In this document: in pieces, positions 2,856-52,794 of the stretch
Numbering within the stretch: position 1 is the first letter of the stretch
Layout: each line of letters starts with the position of its first letter
NCBI GenBank assembly: GCA_003210285.1
Contig: QCVS01000011.1
Span: forward strand, 1 to 53,268
Reading direction: 5' to 3'
Length of the DNA: 53,268 nt
Origin: Prochlorococcus sp. AG-686-J21
GTDB lineage: Bacteria > Cyanobacteriota > Cyanobacteriia > PCC-6307 > Cyanobiaceae
Notes under the pieces: generated by a model
The model's database searches: none
What the model was told of the DNA's origin: nothing
The model's input: only the letters and a program-made list of their open reading frames with translations
Translations under genes and position numbers: made by a program

Positions 2856-4376
2856 GTGCCCAACGAAATCTTTACAATTAATTTAAATGCTCAAGCAATT
2901 ATTCCAGAAGCTTTCATTTTGCTTGGTATTGTTGGAACTCTTCTTGTAGATCTTTCTGGCGAAAAAACTGCCTCAAGGTGGGCACCCGTAATTTGTTACA
3001 TTTCATTAGGCAGTTCTCTTATAAGTCTCGCTTTGCAGTGGAGTAACCCTGTAAATACTGCATTCCTTGGCTCTTTTAATTCAGATAATTTGGCTATTGC
3101 ATTTAGATCAATTATTGCACTATCAACTCTAATTTCTTTACTCATTAGTTGGCGTTATACAGAGCAGAGTGGAAGTCCAATTGGTGAATTCGCTGCAATA
3201 GTCTTATCGGCAACTTTAGGAGCTATGCTTTTGTGTGGATCTACTGACCTTGTCAGTGTATTTATATCTTTAGAGACTTTATCAGTAGCTAGTTATTGTC
3301 TTTCTGGTTATCTCAAGAGAGACCCTAGGAGTTCAGAGGCCGCTTTAAAATATCTCCTTGTTGGATCTGCTGCTGCTGCTGTTTATTTATATGGCTCCTC
3401 ATTCCTTTATGGTCTTAGTGGTTCCACAAACTTATCAACAATTGGTGTAGAGATAATAAATAAACCATCATTTATTACATCCTTATCACTAGTTTTTGTC
3501 TTATCAACTGTTGCTTTTAAGATTGCTGCAGTTCCTTTTCATCAGTGGACACCTGATGTTTATGAAGGATCCCCCACACCTGTAGTAGCTTTTTTATCTG
3601 TAGGGTCTAAGACAGCGGGATTTGCTTTTGCAATAAGAATTTTAAGCACTACTTTTTCCTCTTTCGATGAACAATGGAAACTATTATTTACAATTTTAGC
3701 CATCTTGAGTATGGCTCTTGGAAATATTGTTGCTTTGGCCCAAACCTCAATGAAAAGAATGTTGGCTTACAGTTCAATTGGTCAAGCTGGATTTGTAATG
3801 ATTGGCATAGTATCTGGAACACAAGATGGTCTATCATCAGCTGTTTTATATTTAGCTGCATATTTATTTATGAATCTAGGGGCTTTTTCATGCGTAATAC
3901 TTTTTTCACTCCGAACTGGATCAGATAGAATTGCAGATTATTCAGGCCTTTATCAAAAAGATCCCTTAATTACTTTGGGGCTAAGCCTATGTCTTCTTTC
4001 TCTTGGTGGGCTGCCGCCTATGTTGGGTTTTTTCGGGAAAATATATTTGTTTTTTGCAGGATGGGCTAATCATCAATACCTTTTAGTAGTAGTTGGATTA
4101 GTAACTTCAGTAATTTCAATTTATTACTACATCTCGGTTATAAAAATGATGGTAGTAAAAGAACCCCAAGAAGCTTCTGAAATAGTTAAATCTTATCCTG
4201 AGATCAACTGGAATATCATTGGATTACCTCCTCTTCGAATTGCACTATATACTTGCATAGCTGTTACTGCTTTAGGAGGAATACTTTCTAACCCTCTTTT
4301 CAAATTAGCTAATTCAGCAGTATCAGAAACTCCTTTTTTACAGGATATATTAGCCATAACAAATAATGTGCTTTAA
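2856..4376 (+). CDS. ndhB: NAD(P)H-quinone oxidoreductase subunit 2
   Basis: Membrane proton-pumping subunit of the cyanobacterial NDH-1 complex (homologue of NuoN), used in respiration and cyclic electron flow around photosystem I in the thylakoid. The product of 506 aa is hydrophobic throughout with about 14 membrane segments. It carries the family's conserved core, including the lysine-bearing segment ending [19 protein letters not shown] and the region [18 protein letters not shown]. The start is GTG at 2856 (GTG-CCC-AAC-GAA). It stands alone on this strand except for the ABC ATPase 14 bp downstream. Confidence 0.97.
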
Positions 4377-16268: not shown

Positions 16269-17102
16269 TTAGTTCTCAAAAATATTTTCTAATTCTTCTC
16301 CTATAAAAGAAAGACCTAAGACTAAAAAAAACATTGCTAATCCAGGGAATAAAGCAGTCCACCAAATTCCAGTAGGTATAGCCGCTAGCGCAAGATTAAG
16401 ATCACTTCCCCATTCTGGAACATTTGCAGGAACTCCTAACCCTAAAAAGCCTAAACTTCCTAATACCAAAACAGCATCCGCAGCATTTAAGGTAAGTAGA
16501 ATAGGCAAAGGAGTTATTACATTTGGAAGTATATATTTAAAAATTATAGTTTTAACATCAGCTCCCGAAACTTTTGCAGCTTCAACATATGTCTCTGATT
16601 TTATTAACATTGTTTGATTTCTGATCAATCTAAAATATTGGGGAGAATAAACTATGCACAAGGCTATAGAGGCATTAATAATTCCTTTACCAAGAACAAA
16701 AGCTACTACAACTGAGAGTAAAATAACAGGAATTGAAAAAATAGTATCCATTACAAGTGATAAGCCTTTATCAAGGATCCCTCCAAAATATCCACTCAAC
16801 AAGCCTAATGGAAGGCCTAAGATTAAAGCAAAGAAAATTGCAAGAAATACGACTTCAATAGCTATCGATGATCCTTGTAAAGTTCTTAAACAAACATCCC
16901 TTCCTAATCTATCCGTACCACATAAATGTTTTAAGGAAGGTGGAGCAAAAATATCATTACTAAATGATGATAAAGAATAACCAAAAAAGTTATTCGCCTC
17001 TAATACTTTCATAATCAATACTATTAAAAGATATAAAAGTACAATTAAAAATCCAATCCTTCTAATGTTCTGAGCAACTTGATTTGATGAGTTTGAATTC
17101 AC
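16269..17102 (-). CDS. Peptide/nickel-type ABC transporter permease (DppC-like)
   Basis: Inner-membrane permease of the OppC/DppC/NikC group, 277 aa, with five to six membrane helices. An N-terminal helix (about 15-32) is followed by the family block PPSLKHLCGTDRLGRDV. The cytoplasmic EAA loop for ATPase contact is EAAKVSGADVKTIIFKYILP near residue 175. The start is GTG at 17102. No DppB-type permease, ATPase or binding protein adjoins it, so its partners are elsewhere. Substrate unknown. Confidence 0.85.
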   Translation of the reverse strand: MNSNSSNQVAQNIRRIGFLIVLLYLLIVLIMKVLEANNFFGYSLSSFSNDIFAPPSLKHLCGTDRLGRDVCLRTLQGSSIAIEVVFLAIFFALILGLPLGLLSGYFGGILDKGLSLVMDTIFSIPVILLSVVVAFVLGKGIINASIALCIVYSPQYFRLIRNQTMLIKSETYVEAAKVSGADVKTIIFKYILPNVITPLPILLTLNAADAVLVLGSLGFLGLGVPANVPEWGSDLNLALAAIPTGIWWTALFPGLAMFFLVLGLSFIGEELENIFEN

Positions 17103-21301: not shown

Positions 21302-21325
21302 TAATGAGTAGCTGATGCTACATTT

Positions 21326-21380
21326 CGTTCACCTTCATTAGAGGGCGCAGTTCGAGTCATACCAAGGAACGGGGGATGGC
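21326..21380 (+). promoter_or_regulatory. Glutamine riboswitch-like leader (glnA/Downstream-peptide type)
   Basis: The leader is strikingly GC-rich for this genome. It carries the pattern of the cyanobacterial glutamine riboswitch classes: CGTTCACC at 21326-21333, a short stem (CCTT with GAGG), GGCGCAG, and AAGGAACGG ending the aptamer. P1 pairs CGTTC (21326-21330) with GAACG (21367-21371). The downstream bases AACGG and CCGTT can pair instead, placing the ATG of the gene in the loop, so aptamer and sequestering hairpin appear mutually exclusive. Recognition is from memory of the motif consensus; a covariance search was not run. Confidence 0.7.
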
Positions 21381-47313: not shown

Positions 47314-47395
47314 GGGTCGGTGCCCGAGTGGTTAAAGGGGGCGGACTGTAAATCCGCTGGCTCTGCCTACGTTGGTTCAAATCCAACCCGGCCCA
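47314..47395 (+). tRNA. tRNA-Tyr (GTA)
   Basis: Complete 82-nt class II cloverleaf. Acceptor GGGTCGG pairs with CCGGCCC, anticodon loop CTGTAAA reads TAC/TAT, an extended variable arm follows, T arm GTTGG-TTCAAAT-CCAAC. CCA is not encoded. Ten bases before tRNA-Thr, so both are probably one transcript. Confidence 0.97.
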
Positions 47396-47405
47396 CTTTT
47401 TTTCA

Positions 47406-47477
<72 letters not shown>

Positions 47478-48505: not shown

Positions 48506-48826
48506 ATGGCTTACTATCACGTTCATGGATTGATTCCGGATGGAATCTCTCAGGCTGAGGGTTACAAAATGTTTAAGCAATATATTGATTCCGGTGCACC
48601 TATGGATAAATTTGAAGGGTTTGAATTAATTACCAGATTCCATGCTCCTGAAACCGGGGAGGTTTTTGTGACTCTCAAAGCTGATAATCACCTGGCAATA
48701 TCTGAACATTTCGGAGTATGGAGAGCAAAATTCGGCCTTGAGTGGAATATCACTGCTGTTTTGAATGATGAAGAAGTCATTCAAAGAAATAAGCAGGTTG
48801 CGGATGCTGTCGCTGCGATGGGATAA
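48506..48826 (+). CDS. DUF3303-like alpha/beta-barrel protein, 106 aa
   Basis: Soluble 106-aa protein beginning MAYYHVHGLIPDGISQAEGY; one ferredoxin-like domain is suggested by FEGFELITRFHAPETGEVFV and the later HFGVWRAKFGLEWNITAVLN. I associate this layout with DUF3303, whose function is unknown. GC content is a little higher than that of its island neighbours. It does not have the repeated operator module of the next genes. Confidence 0.6.
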   Translation: MAYYHVHGLIPDGISQAEGYKMFKQYIDSGAPMDKFEGFELITRFHAPETGEVFVTLKADNHLAISEHFGVWRAKFGLEWNITAVLNDEEVIQRNKQVADAVAAMG

Positions 48827-48833
48827 TTTGATT

Positions 48834-48879
48834 GATTGACAGTCGATCTATATTAAAGGGATAAAACCCTCTTTTTTTT
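48834..48879 (+). promoter_or_regulatory. Island operator-hairpin module, copy 1
   Basis: Palindromic operator GATTGAC-A-GTCGATC (48834-48848), the AT-rich -10-like box TATATTAAA, then hairpin AGGG/CCCT and eight T, ending at the ATG of the 85-aa gene 44 bases after TTGACA. Same layout as four other copies in the island. Confidence 0.8.
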
Positions 48880-49137
48880 ATGACTAATAAATTTTATCAA
48901 TGGTGGAAAACCCATCGAAGAGTAGTTACTCTTGGAGGCTTTTTAATCTTGTTAGGTTGGTATGTGTCACCGGTGATTAAAGAAGCAAAATTTAAAAACA
49001 CATGCATAAGTCTCTCGGAGAAAGCTGCTTTAAATAAATTCGAGGGGGATAATATCGGAGAAACACTTTTAAAGGAAACTGGTTTAAGTATTACGGAATT
49101 AGCAAAAATAGAAGGTTATAAGAATTGCGTAAAATAA
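48880..49137 (+). CDS. Membrane-anchored hypothetical protein, 85 aa
   Basis: Basic N-terminus (MTNKFYQWWKTHRRV), one membrane segment (about 16-33, VTLGGFLILLGWYVSPVI), then a hydrophilic domain that would be periplasmic or lumenal, with two cysteines (Cys52 and near the end) that could form a disulfide. No known family. It starts directly after module copy 1, whose T-run touches the ATG. Confidence 0.65.
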   Translation: MTNKFYQWWKTHRRVVTLGGFLILLGWYVSPVIKEAKFKNTCISLSEKAALNKFEGDNIGETLLKETGLSITELAKIEGYKNCVK

Positions 49138-49187
49138 AACGCTTGCCACTTCCAAAAATGCTTTAATCACCCACCTGTTTTCAGCAA

Positions 49188-49277
49188 TTAAGTTAAAACC
49201 AGAACTATTATCACCAGTAACATAAGCACGTTTAATGCAACTGCTATCCGAAATAAAACCCTCCGATCTTTTGCCAT
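49188..49277 (-). CDS. Small membrane peptide, 29 aa
   Basis: From ATG 49277 the frame gives MAKDRRVLFRIAVALNVLML and seven to nine further hydrophobic residues up to VLT: a short basic head and one membrane helix. GAAAGG lies 5-10 bases upstream as a possible ribosome site. It runs opposite to the flanking genes. Small size keeps confidence modest. Confidence 0.45.
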   Translation of the reverse strand: MAKDRRVLFRIAVALNVLMLLVIIVLVLT

Positions 49278-49362
49278 TAAACCTTTCAAGTTATTGATTA
49301 ACTTTTAGCTCTTTTCTTTTTAACCATCTGCAACTTGCGATACCTTATTACAAGGTGTAATT

Positions 49363-49406
49363 ATTGACAGTCAATATAAAATAAGGGGTAATCAGCTCCT
49401 TTTTTT
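49363..49406 (+). promoter_or_regulatory. Island operator-hairpin module, copy 2
   Basis: Here the operator is a perfect palindrome, ATTGAC-A-GTCAAT (49363-49375), followed by TATAAAATA, the hairpin AAGGGG/CTCCTT (one G-T pair) and seven T, ending at the ATG of the cupin gene, 43 bases after TTGACA. Confidence 0.85.
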
Positions 49407-49835
49407 ATGCAAAAATTTAGAAATCTTTTAATCTCAGCAATAACAATTTCATCAGTTCTTCTACCTCTGGAAATTGCTAAAGCTCAAGAAAAGATTGAAG
49501 TAATACCTCTTATTCAAAGTACAAAGGGGCTGGGAGGTGAAAAGATTTCTTACCCTAGGTGGAAGCAGGCCGAGCTTAGATTCTTCAAGGTAATTATCCC
49601 TGTTGGTGTAAAGACTCCAATTCACATACATCCAGCACCAATGGTTGTACTTCTTGCCAAGGGAGAATTGAAGCATACAAGGGGAGATGTTATAAATTAC
49701 TTTTCATCAAAGCAATCTTTTATAGAGAGCAATAATGGCGATGAACATTTCGTTGAAAATATAGGAAATGAACCTGCAATTCTTTATGTAGTTGCGGCAT
49801 CTGCTGTCGGACTTCCTACAACTGTTAATAAGTAA
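49407..49835 (+). CDS. Secreted cupin-domain protein, 142 aa
   Basis: Signal peptide at residues 1-26 (MQKFRNLLISAITISSVLLP, ending IAKAQ, AxA-type site), then one small cupin barrel: GVKTPIHIHPAPMVVLLAKG supplies the two metal-ligand histidines and the glutamate region, and GDEHFVENIGNEPAILYVV the second motif with its histidine. So it is probably a metal-binding periplasmic protein; substrate unknown. Controlled by module copy 2. Confidence 0.78.
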   Translation: MQKFRNLLISAITISSVLLPLEIAKAQEKIEVIPLIQSTKGLGGEKISYPRWKQAELRFFKVIIPVGVKTPIHIHPAPMVVLLAKGELKHTRGDVINYFSSKQSFIESNNGDEHFVENIGNEPAILYVVAASAVGLPTTVNK

Positions 49836-49852
49836 AGTCTCAATACTTTTGT

Positions 49853-49897
49853 GATTGAAAGTCGATCTACACTAAGGAGCAACTAGCTCCTTTTTTA
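49853..49897 (+). promoter_or_regulatory. Island operator-hairpin module, copy 3
   Basis: GATTGAA-A-GTCGATC, then TACACTAA, then the best hairpin of the five: AAGGAGC (49874-49880) and GCTCCTT (49886-49892) with loop AACTA and a T-run reaching the ATG at 49898. TTGAAA replaces TTGACA, and the -10 region is weaker. Confidence 0.8.
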
Positions 49898-50161
49898 ATG
49901 GAAAAGTTATTTATAGTTTGTACCTTCGATTGCTCTTTTCAGTATTATGAGTAGACAATTAATCAATGGGTAAAAGAACAGGGAGAAGGAATCGTAATAG
50001 ATTATGAGTTAGTCAAAATTAATGATCATAGGTCTCATTCTTTTTATACAGTTAAAAGTTTAGAAGAGTTTTCAGGGATGTTAGATACTGAATGGGCAAG
50101 GGAGTGGGATAAGGCTAATAATTGCAAAGATATTATTTATAAACTTGAGCTGGTTGAATAA
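49898..50161 (+). pseudogene. Small gene with an in-frame TAG (87-codon frame)
   Basis: From the ATG at 49898 the frame reads MEKLFIVCTFDCSFQYYE, TAG at codon 19 (49952-49954), then continues open for 68 codons (TINQWVKEQGEGIVIDYELV and on to YKLELVE) to a TAA. Both halves have normal coding character, so it looks like one 86-aa gene broken by a single amber codon. It follows module copy 3. Family unknown. Readthrough or a sequencing error are alternatives. Confidence 0.65.
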
Positions 50162-50184
50162 CTCATATATGCCATAGAAATATT

Positions 50185-50325
50185 TTAAATTTCGCAGCCG
50201 CGGTACGAAGGGTTCTCTTCGCACTTAAGTTTCCAATAAATCACTTTGATATTTGCCCCATTATCTATATCGTTAACAGTCTTGAAGTATTTAGGAATAA
50301 TTGTATAAGGAACTCTTTTATCCAT
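50185..50325 (-). CDS. Hypothetical protein, 46 aa, with a consensus ribosome site
   Basis: ATG at 50325 is preceded on the minus strand by AGGAGG with a 5-base spacer, the strongest Shine-Dalgarno in the island. The product is MDKRVPYTIIPKYFKTVNDI followed by a polar beta-like segment and the end KCEENPSYRGCEI with two cysteines. No family is recognised. The hairpin CTGACACA/TGTGTATCAG-like sequence upstream (50362-50388) may be part of its promoter region. Confidence 0.65.
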   Translation of the reverse strand: MDKRVPYTIIPKYFKTVNDIDNGANIKVIYWKLKCEENPSYRGCEI

Positions 50326-50392
50326 GATTTCCTCCTATTTACTACATCTATGTTCTAACTACTGACACATAGCATTTGTGTGTATCAGTATG

Positions 50393-50520
50393 TACGGTTA
50401 AAGGAAGAATAAGGTACGGGAAGAGGACTGAGTTTCGAGGCTTTTATTTAATTGCCAGTCCTAGGATTGATTAATGGTTGTCATGAGGCAGATGCTGGGA
50501 TTCAACTGAAAACAACCATT
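50393..50520 (+). ncRNA. Structured non-coding element, copy 1
   Basis: Runs from TACGGTTAAAGGAA through GGTACGGGA, a hairpin AGGACTG/CAGTCCT (50424-50462 region), to a terminal stem AATGGTTGT (50473-50481) with ACAACCATT (50512-50520). The loop begins CATGAG. A second copy with the same order lies at 51241. No reading frame explains the conservation. I do not recognise an Rfam family; the strand is assumed from the downstream genes. Confidence 0.55.
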
Positions 50521-50574
50521 AATTATTAAAGATAAAGTTAGGTTATTAAACACACTCATTAAAGTAAACAGATT

Positions 50575-50619
50575 ATTGACAATCGATCTAAAATAAAGGG
50601 AGTTTAGTAGCTTTTTTTA
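50575..50619 (+). promoter_or_regulatory. Island operator-hairpin module, copy 4
   Basis: TATTGAC-A-ATCGATC, then TAAAATAAA and a degenerate hairpin (AAAG with CTTT) and seven T, ending at an ATG 44 bases after TTGACA. It drives the micro-operon at 50620-51168. Confidence 0.75.
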
Positions 50620-50667
50620 ATGAATAAAAGATTTATAGCTGAAAAGATAATGACTCTACTCATTTAA
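50620..50667 (+). CDS. 15-codon peptide behind module copy 4
   Basis: ATG directly after the module T-run encodes MNKRFIAEKIMTLLI and a TAA. It may be a leader peptide or the decayed start of a lost gene. The next ATG is 12 bp beyond its stop. Listed because every other module copy also ends exactly at a start codon. Confidence 0.3.
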   Translation: MNKRFIAEKIMTLLI

Positions 50668-50678
50668 TTAATCGGCTA

Positions 50679-50795
50679 ATGAATATTTCTCCTCATTTAT
50701 TAATAGATGCTGGAATACTAAGTACTGCTCTGACTATAATTTTAGTACTAAGAGCTAAAGGAAACTCAGCCAGAAAAGGGCGAGAAAGTAAATGA
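50679..50795 (+). CDS. Small membrane protein, 38 aa
   Basis: MNISPHLLIDAGILSTALTI starts an almost fully hydrophobic segment (about 7-24), followed by a basic tail RAKGNSARKGRESK. One membrane helix, tail probably cytoplasmic. Its TGA overlaps the ATG of the next gene (ATGA). Family unknown. Confidence 0.55.
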   Translation: MNISPHLLIDAGILSTALTIILVLRAKGNSARKGRESK

Positions 50796-50932
50796 TTACT
50801 AAAAAAGAAGAAACAGAATACGAAAAACCAAAATTATTTAGGATTTGGAATTTTCTAATATATGGAAGCTTTTTTGCTATTGGCGCTTTCTTGGTTTATT
50901 TATATTCCGCTTATATATTTATAAATAAATAA
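50792..50932 (+). CDS. Small membrane protein, 46 aa
   Basis: Charged N-terminus (MITKKEETEYEKPKLF), then one membrane helix (about 18-43, IWNFLIYGSFFAIGAFLVYL and on). Overlaps the preceding gene by 4 bp and the next gene by 1 bp (TAATG), so the three are translated as one unit. Family unknown. Confidence 0.6.
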   Translation: MITKKEETEYEKPKLFRIWNFLIYGSFFAIGAFLVYLYSAYIFINK

Positions 50933-51168
50933 TGGAACATTGGCTAATAAATTCCAATAGATCACAAGTTAAAAGATTCATAAAGAACGATAAGAGTATT
51001 GAGGAAGTTTTCGAGTATATGTTTATTGACTCCGGAAAAATAGTTGGAGTCTTAGGGAAAGAACCTCCCGTAATGACAACAACAGTTTCTGTAGAAATAG
51101 ATTTAGCTAGAGAGATCTATGAAAGATTACTTTCTCAAGGTTGGCGTAAAACAAAAGTGGTTTGGTAA
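50932..51168 (+). CDS. Hypothetical soluble protein, 78 aa
   Basis: Starts MEHWLINSNRSQVKRFIKND and contains a beta-like core (GKIVGVLGKEPPVMTTTVSV) and a helical end (LAREIYERLLSQGWRKTKVVW). The final part resembles many small picocyanobacterial proteins ending with a GW motif, but I cannot name the family. Last gene of the micro-operon; a hairpin with T-run follows. Confidence 0.65.
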   Translation: MEHWLINSNRSQVKRFIKNDKSIEEVFEYMFIDSGKIVGVLGKEPPVMTTTVSVEIDLAREIYERLLSQGWRKTKVVW

Positions 51169-51174
51169 TAAATA

Positions 51175-51210
51175 ATCATTTACTACTTATAATGATCGTT
51201 TCGTTTTTTT
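51175..51210 (+). terminator. Terminator-like hairpin after the micro-operon
   Basis: ATCATT (51175-51180) and AATGAT (51191-51196) pair around a 10-base loop; a T-run ends at 51210. AT-rich and hence weak. Confidence 0.5.
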
Positions 51211-51240
51211 AGAGTTTTTAGATTTGTGATATGAACTTTG

Positions 51241-51365
51241 TACGGGTTAAGGAACGAGGAGGTTCGGGATTAGGTATGTATAAATACTTAGTAAATAATT
51301 AAGACTTCCTAGAGTAATTGCATGGTTGTCATGAGACTGCCGCGGAAGCTGTAGAAATCAACCAT
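51241..51365 (+). ncRNA. Structured non-coding element, copy 2
   Basis: TACGGGTTAAGGAA, GGTTCGGGA, an internal stem (AGGAGGT with ACTTCCT) and the terminal stem ATGGTTG (51322-51328) with CAACCAT (51359-51365) repeat the order of copy 1. The loop start TCATGAG is identical. The stems differ in sequence yet still pair, which suggests selection on RNA structure. It ends 22 bp before the 49-aa gene and may be its leader. Confidence 0.55.
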
Positions 51366-51387
51366 ACTTTTTAAACAAGGAACAAAT

Positions 51388-51537
51388 ATGACCGACCCAA
51401 TTCTCTATCTTTCAATGATATTAGGACTCACTGGAGTCTACGTTTTAATCTCATCTTTTGGCGATGATGACGATGATAGTAATGATGATGGTGAAAGATA
51501 TATGTACAACCTTGAATACGTAAAAGTGGGTAAGTAG
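51388..51537 (+). CDS. Small membrane protein with an Asp-rich segment, 49 aa
   Basis: MTDPILYLSMILGLTGVYVL starts a membrane helix (about 5-24), then FGDDDDDSNDDGE, an acidic stretch that could bind cations, and a short end MYNLEYVKVGK. AAGGAA lies 7-12 bases before the ATG. It lies directly behind non-coding element copy 2. Family unknown. Confidence 0.6.
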   Translation: MTDPILYLSMILGLTGVYVLISSFGDDDDDSNDDGERYMYNLEYVKVGK

Positions 51538-51683
51538 TAAGGAAGCATTAATAACATAATTGATTCACTAATAAAGCCTTCACTTATTGAAAATTGATCA
51601 GACTTAAATTCCTTTAAAAAGTTGATTATATTTAGGGATTTCTACTCTCACGGCTAGAAAGAGCCGATGTTAATATTGATATA

Positions 51684-51740
51684 CGTTCATCCTAGTAATA
51701 TCTGGACGCATGACATGGAAATAGGGAACGGGATTTCCAT
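51684..51740 (+). promoter_or_regulatory. Glutamine riboswitch-like leader, second copy
   Basis: CGTTCATCC (51684-51692), GGACGCATGACATGG (51704-51718) and GGGAACGGG match the glnA-type glutamine aptamer order; P1 is CGTTC with GAACG (51726-51730). An alternative perfect 8-bp hairpin ATGGAAAT/ATTTCCAT (51715-51722 and 51733-51740) would hold the P1 strand in its loop, a plausible switch. A separate hairpin CGGCT/AGCCG lies upstream at 51651-51666. Compare 21326. Confidence 0.7.
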
Positions 51741-51754
51741 TAACTGCAAAGGCC

Positions 51755-51919
51755 ATGAATAACCTCGTATTCATTAGAGAGAAAATCAAAAGAGCAGAAA
51801 GGCTAAATAAAGCCCAGCTTCTTGCTACAAAAAATGGAGAGATTACTCCTTATAATCCTTCTGTTTTTGAGCTAAGACAAAAGCAGGCTCTTTTAGATAT
51901 GGAAGCATTAAATTCTTAA
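51755..51919 (+). CDS. Short peptide gene behind the riboswitch, 54 aa
   Basis: MNNLVFIREKIKRAERLNKA and on through QLLATKNGEITPYNPSVF to LDMEALNS: a basic, mostly helical soluble peptide of unknown function. It fits the short ORFs that follow Downstream-peptide/glnA glutamine riboswitches in marine picocyanobacteria and phages, which suggests nitrogen-dependent expression. A strong terminator follows 27 bp after the stop. Confidence 0.7.
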   Translation: MNNLVFIREKIKRAERLNKAQLLATKNGEITPYNPSVFELRQKQALLDMEALNS

Positions 51920-51945
51920 TTTGAATTTATTACTTACATCCGAAT

Positions 51946-51972
51946 AAAAGGGGTTTTATAACCCCTTTTTTA
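51946..51972 (+). terminator. Rho-independent terminator
   Basis: AAAAGGGGTT (51946-51955) and AACCCCTTTT (51960-51969) pair around TTAT, with a T-run. Ends the riboswitch-controlled 54-aa gene. Confidence 0.9.
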
Positions 51973-52121
51973 TTAGGAAAGTTTTTGGATAAAAAAGCAA
52001 ATATTGAAACACTTACTACCTGTACCGCTTATTTAAAAAATAAATTCTAGAAAATTACAATTACTAATAGAAAGTCTTATGAGGTGTATCCTTATTGGCA
52101 GATGTTAATTAAGTATTAGTT

Positions 52122-52277
52122 ATGGCACTTCCAGAATTACATGAAAACACAATTGATCAAATAAGAACTCTTCTTAGATATTTGAGTGAAACAGATCTAT
52201 TAAATAATAAAGATATTCTTAGGTGTTTAGATGTAATAGCGAGAGAGCATGGAGGAGAAGTGGTAGATAAAAATTAA
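52122..52277 (+). CDS. Small acidic helical protein, 51 aa
   Basis: MALPELHENTIDQIRTLLRY begins a fully helical soluble protein that ends ILRCLDVIAREHGGEVVDKN. One cysteine; no membrane segment. No family recognised. A 13-bp sequence (AAGTATTAGTTAT) overlaps its start and recurs before tRNA-Thr(CGT). Confidence 0.55.
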   Translation: MALPELHENTIDQIRTLLRYLSETDLLNNKDILRCLDVIAREHGGEVVDKN

Positions 52278-52528
52278 ATATTAATATCCGATTTTATTTT
52301 TTGGATCAGTTATAAAAATTATAAGATTAAGAACTAGATTGGCAGGAAAATTAAGTGGTTTTAGAAGAAGTAAAACCATTCCCTGAGTTACATTAAAATC
52401 CATATCTTTCTAGACATATTCGTAATAATTCACAGGACTATAGATTGCATCTAGCTTTTCTCATTAAAACTATAGATTTATATTATTTTTCTATTACATA
52501 GTGCAATAAAGTATTAGTTATATTCCTT
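52278..52528. other. Gene-poor spacer before tRNA-Thr(CGT)
   Basis: No convincing gene. A 23-codon minus-strand frame (52464 to 52393) reads well except for one TAG at codon 9 and ends SCELLRICLERYGF, perhaps the remains of a small gene. The tRNA promoter must lie at its right end. Confidence 0.4.
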
Positions 52529-52600
52529 GCCGATATAGCTCAGCGGTAGAGCAACTGTCTCGTAAACAGTAGGTCATCGGTTCAATTCCGATTATCGGCA
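52529..52600 (+). tRNA. tRNA-Thr (CGT)
   Basis: Complete 72-nt cloverleaf: acceptor GCCGATA with TATCGGC, anticodon stem ACTGT/ACAGT with loop CTCGTAA (CGT, reads ACG), T arm ATCGG-TTCAATT-CCGAT. Surrounded by accessory genes on both sides, so it lies within the island or at an internal junction. Confidence 0.96.
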
Positions 52601-52625
52601 TTTAGATTTTAGGTATTAGTTAGTA

Positions 52626-52668
52626 ATTGACAGTCGATATAAAATAAGAGGCAATTAGCTCCTTTTTT
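52626..52668 (+). promoter_or_regulatory. Island operator-hairpin module, copy 5
   Basis: AATTGAC-A-GTCGATA, TATAAAATA, hairpin AAGAGGC/GCTCCTT (one mismatch) and six T, ending at the ATG of the 41-aa gene 42 bases after TTGACA. It lies 25 bp after tRNA-Thr(CGT). Confidence 0.85.
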
Positions 52669-52794
52669 ATGTCTTCTTCAATGAAAGATTTCACGGATAA
52701 ATTTTTTGATTTATGTAGAGAATATCAGGAAGAAATTCCACCTCAAAAGATGGCTGAAGTTTTAAGAGATTATGCAGATAGGTTAGATGGATAA
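52669..52794 (+). CDS. Small helical protein, 41 aa
   Basis: MSSSMKDFTDKFFDLCREYQ followed by EEIPPQKMAEVLRDYADRLDG: acidic, two predicted helices separated by IPP. Directly behind module copy 5. Its TAA overlaps the next ATG by one base. Family unknown. Confidence 0.6.
   Translation: MSSSMKDFTDKFFDLCREYQEEIPPQKMAEVLRDYADRLDG

Follow-up and report, generated by a model that had tools for sequence, protein, structure and literature searches.

Structure of the module at the locus

Prochlorococcus is the most abundant photosynthetic bacterium of the ocean. A stretch of 53,268 nt from Prochlorococcus sp. AG-686-J21 (contig QCVS01000011.1; the whole stretch is called the window) contains five copies of a repeated element of ~45 nt, here termed the module. 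All five copies lie on the plus strand, starting at 48835, 49363, 49854, 50575, and 52626. Each has an ATTGAC-A-GTCRAT core with 0-2 differences from ATTGACAGTCGATC, followed by a TANNNT box, a hairpin, and a T-run that reaches up to an ATG. The module resembles a start signal enclosed by a stop signal, and appears to mark the seams of small-gene swapping. The comparisons described below show, at the level of sequence, that it is a cassette joint at which one-gene cassettes are exchanged in Prochlorococcus variable islands.

Module positions are numbered from the A of ATTGAC (position 0). The core occupies positions 0-13, the TANNNT box 14-19, the hairpin ~20-38, and the T-run ~37-43; among the module sites of the collected loci, the ATG is mostly at position 43-45. 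The parts of the five copies are as follows (folding energies with z-scores against shuffled sequences).

48835-48848, plus strand: core of copy 1, 14-bp near-palindrome ATTGACAGTCGATC, exact consensus, recombination joint
48849-48854, plus strand: -10-like box of copy 1, TATATT (TANNNT)
48855-48879, plus strand: hairpin (GGGATAAAACCC class) and T8 run of copy 1; -4.6 kcal/mol, no better than shuffles (z -0.6)
49363-49376, plus strand: core of copy 2, ATTGACAGTCAATA
49377-49382, plus strand: -10-like box of copy 2, TAAAAT
49383-49406, plus strand: hairpin (7 pairs) and T-run of copy 2; -6.8 kcal/mol, z -2.8
49854-49867, plus strand: core of copy 3, ATTGAAAGTCGATC
49868-49873, plus strand: -10-like box of copy 3, TACACT
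49874-49897, plus strand: hairpin AAGGAGC/GCTCCTT and T-run of copy 3; -9.6 kcal/mol, z -3.8
50575-50588, plus strand: core of copy 4, ATTGACAATCGATC
50589-50594, plus strand: -10-like box of copy 4, TAAAAT
50595-50619, plus strand: hairpin (10 weak pairs) and T-run of copy 4; -5.4 kcal/mol, z -2.2
52626-52639, plus strand: core of copy 5, ATTGACAGTCGATA, 24 bases 3' of a tRNA-Thr gene
52640-52645, plus strand: -10-like box of copy 5, TAAAAT
52646-52668, plus strand: hairpin with one mismatch and T-run of copy 5; -2.7 kcal/mol, no better than shuffles (z -0.2)

An initial annotation of this DNA had described five recurring operator-hairpin modules with 42-44 bases from TTGAC(A) to the ATG. All five are present, its coordinates were right to within 1 base, and the measured distances are 44, 43, 43, 44, and 42 bases for copies 1-5. 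These copies are the only matches in the window to ATTGACARTCRATNTA at 0-1 mismatch. The modules in the window are not a product of chance.

Distribution of the module

In the 1.58-Mb genome from which the window derives, the element is clustered on few contigs; the 20-mer has 18 matches at ≤2 mismatches, and the reversed pattern 0. Recurrence in other Prochlorococcus genomes, suggested as a check in the initial annotation, was seen in every genome of the genus searched. The 20-base consensus (≤2 mismatches) was present in 37/37 same-genus genomes and 0/23 others of a first whole-genome set, and in 55/55 same-genus genomes (4-27 copies each) and 1/245 others of a second set, where the reversed-pattern control gave a single match in all. 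The two sets overlap in some genomes. Since most loci used below were fetched via the element itself, these whole-genome counts are the unbiased figures. The sole case outside the genus (genome G184; L197, ~1186) has a full module with hairpin and ATG, which might perhaps have left the Prochlorococcus group by transfer. Among named genomes, a scan gave at least 118 stretches; five came from unrelated bacteria, and the remainder from Prochlorococcus or picocyanobacterial single cells.

The fetched loci (1.406 Mb) contain 358 distinct sites at ≤3 mismatches of the 20-mer; the reversed pattern had 0 matches at ≤3 mismatches and 4 at 4. Exact duplicates were removed from the 358-site set and from the flank-switching and control counts, and were kept in the filled/empty link counts and the count of shared flanks; some contigs are apparently the same one fetched twice (e.g., L116/L171 and L158/L180). 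The non-cyanobacterial loci L095, L097, L106, and L127 were excluded from the site sets, and sites near locus ends were dropped. One site from a Bacteroides record (L148) is included in the 358-site and open reading frame (ORF) family sets, and was dropped later. The 20-mer mismatch limit was ≤4 for flank switching, and ≤3 for the arm-swap test and an earlier breakpoint analysis.

The initial annotation had expected copies limited to islands or phages. A limitation to phages was refuted: in viral contigs the 16-mer core had 8 matches and the reversed 16-mer 9, which is chance level without enrichment, and the 20-mer was found in 2 stretches. A phage origin was considered and rejected; 50,697 phage records gave 45 weak matches to the 47-base consensus (best E among the matches listed, 0.02), and the two inspected, both from Vibrio phages, were plain terminators. 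No known RNA family was detected at the modules by an Rfam scan. No description of the element was found in the literature searched, which took in the accessible parts of PMC2518516, PMC5069720, PMC2784084, and PMC5607370 and left subscription papers largely outside.

Genome G015, taken here as MED4, has 16 sites at ≤3 mismatches. Several of them are near non-coding RNAs (ncRNAs) that Steglich et al. assign to islands 1 and 2, according to the accessible part of PMC2518516. Seven sites lie at 1347087-1364604, 11-28 kb past an ncRNA of island 5. The ncRNA Yfr11 ends beside a module at its own terminator 5' of the core, and therefore provides no start-site evidence.

Exchange of cassettes at the core

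The 25-40 bases 5' of the module recur ahead of different genes, and one gene can in turn be found behind several flanks. When flanks of 150-200 bases were clustered by BLAST, 55 of the 66 recurrent upstream flanks led to two or more downstream units (8 at most), and 55 of the 60 recurrent downstream units had two or more upstream flanks (12 at most). As a control, 817 ordinary gene starts in the same loci were treated likewise: only 8/84 recurrent upstream flanks had more than one unit (Fisher 4e-21), or 6/60 when the control was restricted to ≤3 kb from a module (Fisher 1e-17). The control for downstream units was high (56/109 overall, 50/85 near modules), so that this side is less telling. 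Adjacent modules mostly share one orientation (191/210; 191 on the same strand, 19 on opposite strands).

Similarity profiles across the module locate the switch. Pairs with the same upstream flank exceeded background at several positions up to 10; from position 16 they no longer did so, except at the isolated positions 22 and 27. Pairs with the same downstream unit stayed at background through position 15, with an isolated exception at -10, and mostly exceeded it from position 16. The two similarities meet inside ATTGACAGTCGATCTA, which thus is the site of recombination, a role that the initial annotation does not mention. Filled and empty alleles were also identified, by a search that required core sites at both ends; it gave 45 pairs in 19 groups, which share some cassettes and empty alleles and are not all independent. 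Fourteen groups concern a single cassette of ~0.3-2.5 kb, and the identical run at the two junctions has a median of 17 bases. In 15 comparisons laid side by side, similarity mostly switches at the core, and a few have degenerate cores. Where the two cores differ, empty alleles match either the first or the second, so the crossover is placed within the core and not at one point of it.

The distance from the core to the upstream stop is fixed in several gene families (measured for cores within 200 bases). It is -5 in 8/8 members of family 4, where the TGA of the gene lies inside the core; 4 in 5/5 of family 7, where the following units differ in all four assignable cases; 8 in 3/3 of family 22, ahead of different following units; and 34 in 3/3 of one further family. 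The distance is split in family 0 (-1 in four, 40 in three) and family 1 (36 in two, 38 in two). Modules with unrelated genes also share a recurring tail near GAAACGCTTACTACTTGCACCGCTA plus one of a few short spacers, just 5' of the core (L003, L045, L053, L069, L082, L094, and others). A stretch similar to the GAAACGCTTACTACTTGCACCGCTA tail is found in the window at 52006-52029.

These features raise the question of a dedicated site-specific recombinase, whose cut at the 3' end of the palindromic core would let cassettes in or out, as in integrons. Crossovers within 16 bp and none in the hairpin, gain and loss of single cassettes, their common orientation, and the fixed place of the core behind the gene in several families would all agree with it. 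An open frame of 386-398 aa for a tyrosine recombinase is present in 41/41 genus genomes examined, and further tyrosine recombinase matches lie near some modules: G000:C22:4085-4615 (module at 4004), G294:C10:303416 (module at 303650), and G000:C16:20575 (~4 kb from a module at 16349). The 386-398-aa protein was rejected as the module-specific enzyme, as its gene is also found in 109/111 genomes of other genera, only one of which has the module. One example, of 392 aa, is at L189 1507-2685, with neighbours that we take to be hemH, cobO, pyrH, and frr; this gene is present in 119/121 family genomes, the genus counted. No further match was detected in 17/41 genus genomes, in a search that covered the tyrosine class and not serine recombinases or transposases. 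The contig of the window has no PF00589 match. Two recombinases of the own genome were far below or without a match to the integron integrase model, a test that did not take in the recombinases near modules. In addition, the 16-bp stretch is the longest conserved one, and recombination at short homology would give the same pattern. An integron-like enzyme is regarded as unlikely. For RecA, 16-20 shared bases are few, but they could suffice for phage-like annealing proteins or for replication slippage.

Promoter-like box and hairpin

A TANNNT box follows 228 of 256 cores that were selected by the 13-mer alone. No -35-like signal was present at the right distance in the 358 sites. Bacterial transcripts start ~7 bases past the -10 box, which puts the expected start at module position 25-27, beyond most of the 5' arm of the hairpin. 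The leader from this start would be unstructured (0 kcal/mol) and pyrimidine-rich. Pyrimidine-rich leaders in MED4 are discussed as a route to S1-dependent initiation in the accessible part of PMC5607370. The stop of the upstream gene is located a median of 11 bases 5' of the core (from noisy ORF calls), which leaves little space for any other terminator.

Arm-swap and covariation tests support the predicted hairpin. Among its forms two are common, GGGGC-AATTA-GCTCC and AGGG-ATAAAA-CCCT, and both are found ahead of unrelated genes. Matched arms scored 12.30 versus 10.87 for swapped arms, with 11.31 as the best of 200 swaps. The GGGGC-AATTA-GCTCC class behaved similarly (12.24 versus 11.28, best 11.97); in the AGGG-ATAAAA-CCCT class the difference was not clear (12.33 versus 11.76, best 12.42). 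The covariation set comprised 54 distinct leaders, derived from 70 of 158 and picked by loop rather than stem. Pairing was found in 82.3% of cells, versus 78.7% in shuffled and at most 71.4% in slid versions, and the covariation score of 0.237 was reached by 2/500 shuffles and by no slid version (best 0.195). The claim of the initial annotation that the shared part is a conserved element ahead of unrelated genes, with promoter-like and structured parts, was borne out.

The initial annotation read the hairpin as an attenuator. Such a leader would act on its own mRNA, through premature stop, stability, or translation. The tight spacing of the ATG (mostly 43-45) speaks for it, as does a stem equally strong behind divergent neighbours, where there is no read-through to stop (p = 0.46). 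The geometry makes it unlikely, since 53 of the 64 strong stems begin at position 20, directly 3' of the -10 box, and the expected transcript would lack most of the 5' arm. Sites without a 45-aa ORF behind them keep the hairpin, with a slightly lower score (11.86, n=135, versus 12.37, n=204). Overall, an effect on the own mRNA is considered improbable. With its 5' arm placed between the -10 box and the predicted start, the hairpin more likely terminates read-through from the preceding cassette than attenuates its own gene.

The proposed working of the joint would be as follows. A cassette would consist of TANNNT box, hairpin and T-run, ATG, small gene, stop, short tail, and 14-bp core, in this order; the exchange of cassettes by recombination inside the common ATTGACAGTCGATCTA core is what the sequence comparisons show. 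Transcription of the cassette itself would begin from the -10 box at about position 25-27, where the 5' arm ends or the loop lies. The full hairpin would form only on RNA from the preceding cassette, on which it may act as an intrinsic terminator; the residual pyrimidine-rich leader (CUCCUUUUUU-AUG) would be unstructured and free for translation start. As the cassette carries both box and hairpin, an inserted gene would bring its own start signal and be insulated from its neighbour. The core may additionally bind a regulator.

Evaluation of the cassette joint

The module might also belong to a regulon only, with the palindrome as operator of one transcription factor and flank shuffling as ordinary island turnover. 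The single regulator that the initial annotation inferred for these genes is hypothetical. The palindrome adjoins the -10 box, the box comes without a -35-like signal, and the core is near-invariant across the 358 sites, which were chosen by consensus. Against this, ordinary gene starts in the same loci lack such shuffling, and the two halves of the palindrome show a conserved difference (T at position 2, G at position 10). In addition, the core can be followed directly by a terminator-like hairpin (mostly GGGGCTTTTAGCCCCC) without a -10 box, as observed in L039, L042, L044, L050, L099, L140, L162, and L165; these cases, from several genomes, look like one shared locus. A pure regulon thus seems quite improbable.

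Where the same two flanks were found in another locus, 546 cases had the core and 39 were scored without it; among the 25 no-core loci shown, 23 had a degenerate or still module-like core, and two were apparently unrelated. The module does not come and go alone; presence and absence, as seen in the filled and empty alleles, concern whole cassettes. A small mobile promoter that jumps ahead of genes, like a miniature inverted-repeat transposable element, would explain the many near-identical copies ahead of unrelated genes, but it is a very remote prospect, because a module or a degenerate core is kept almost throughout between the same two flanks, and whole cassettes, not modules, are what differs.

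Several observations weigh against a promoter-terminator joint between cassettes. Most loci were collected by a pattern scan for the element and are not a random sample, and no ORF was called behind 101 of the 358 sites. A sigma-70-type scan misses the modules; of the window copies only copy 4 was picked up, via a weak upstream hexamer. The initial annotation gave each module a hairpin, and all five copies do carry one, but they are uneven (-9.6 to -2.7 kcal/mol), and only two of the five pass the terminator-like scan (8 such sites in the stretch versus 2.0 expected). A strong stem is present in only 64/158 representative leaders. Pairs changed on both sides numbered five, which is not significant (63/500 shuffles), and the alignment slid by 3 columns equals the counts of two-sided changed pairs and pair types. 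Stem strength did not depend on a same-strand gene in front (p = 0.49, with noisy ORF calls), a dependence to be expected of a pure terminator.

Taking these points together, we consider it probable that single-gene cassettes in the variable islands of this Prochlorococcus genus are connected by the module, as a portable joint of promoter and terminator. Exchanges could then be counted in genomes or metagenomes by a search for a single 16-mer that marks single-gene cassette joints. The module may also serve as a compact natural part, which blocks incoming transcription and starts its own. A bolder and doubtful proposal is a new cellular cassette system, in which a 14-16-bp core for a site-specific recombinase is combined with a self-exempting promoter-terminator. 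If true, any captured gene would be at once expressed and insulated, and the system would be an engine filling the islands of high-light Prochlorococcus.

Cassette genes and other features of the window

The 257 ORFs behind modules fall into 103 families by single linkage, with a median length of 94 aa. Ten proteins were scanned, seven of them from the window, and three pass the Pfam cut-off (DUF3764, DUF1651, and DUF3303). The genes adjoining the modules of the window are as follows.

48506-48826, plus strand: DUF3303 gene, stop 8 bases before core 1; one family-22 member is 73% identical
48880-49137, plus strand: cassette gene 1, 85 aa, no Pfam match at E 0.1; family 6, with 7 module-linked members including it
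49407-49835, plus strand: cassette gene 2, 142 aa, weak Cupin_2 below the Pfam cut-off; family 13, with 4 members including it
49898-49954, plus strand: cassette gene 3, similar to the beginning of a family-1 gene (by eye, L079)
50620-50667, plus strand: ORF of cassette 4; modules in other genomes are followed by nearly the same start
52669-52794, plus strand: cassette gene 5, 41 aa; family 19, formed by it and two behind modules elsewhere (L062, L161)

The genes behind the modules are unrelated, as the initial annotation had stated, but of uneven quality: the gene at 49898 is cut short by a premature stop after 18 codons, and that at 50620 amounts to an ORF of 15 codons. The family-1-like gene can be followed over 49898-50161 (partly by eye), with this one in-frame stop and an open frame beyond.

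The window has tRNA genes at 47314-47477 and 52528-52601. A Glutamine-II riboswitch aptamer lies inside the island at 51681-51740, ahead of a 54-aa ORF at 51755, and a second one at 21323-21380. Two related stem-loop-capable stretches, 50466-50526 and 51310-51372 (TGGTTGTCATGAG), have no Rfam match. The first folds at -18 kcal/mol (z -3.45 against shuffles); the second is not better than shuffles (z -1.04).

Comparison with known systems

Tycheposons of Prochlorococcus are elements of 4-200 kb with a tyrosine recombinase, as described in the accessible part of PMC10872708. The modules likewise occur in variable islands adjoining tRNA genes, in the same kind of organism. However, the units marked by the module are single genes, and the contig of the window gave no tyrosine recombinase match (PF00589).

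Integron cassettes rely on IntI and attC sites with GTTRRRY/RYYYAAC boxes, and are mostly promoterless. One-gene cassettes, same-direction arrays, a recombination site behind the gene, and gain or loss of single cassettes are shared features. The module cassettes differ in that each has a promoter-like box (TANNNT in 228/256), the attC-type GTTRRRY/RYYYAAC boxes are absent from the module consensus (by eye), and the search among two own-genome recombinases gave no integron integrase.

Promoter-early stem-loops (PeSLs) of T4-type phages contain a strong sigma-70-like promoter with -35 and -10. The module has no -35 and carries a 14-bp near-palindrome 5' of its -10 box. Its crossovers are confined to the core, its predicted start is inside the hairpin, and it belongs to a bacterial genus without enrichment in viral contigs. 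The role of PeSLs, reportedly the subject of papers by Arbiol et al. in 2010 and Comeau et al. in 2014, is as described in the accessible part of PMC4503421. Both elements are composites of a promoter and a stem-loop terminator (functions that are predicted from sequence for the module), both are repeated in variable regions in which genes are shuffled, and the shuffling with breakpoints at the element is likewise found for the module. PeSLs are the closest known system, one that the module resembles in its working without being a member of it.

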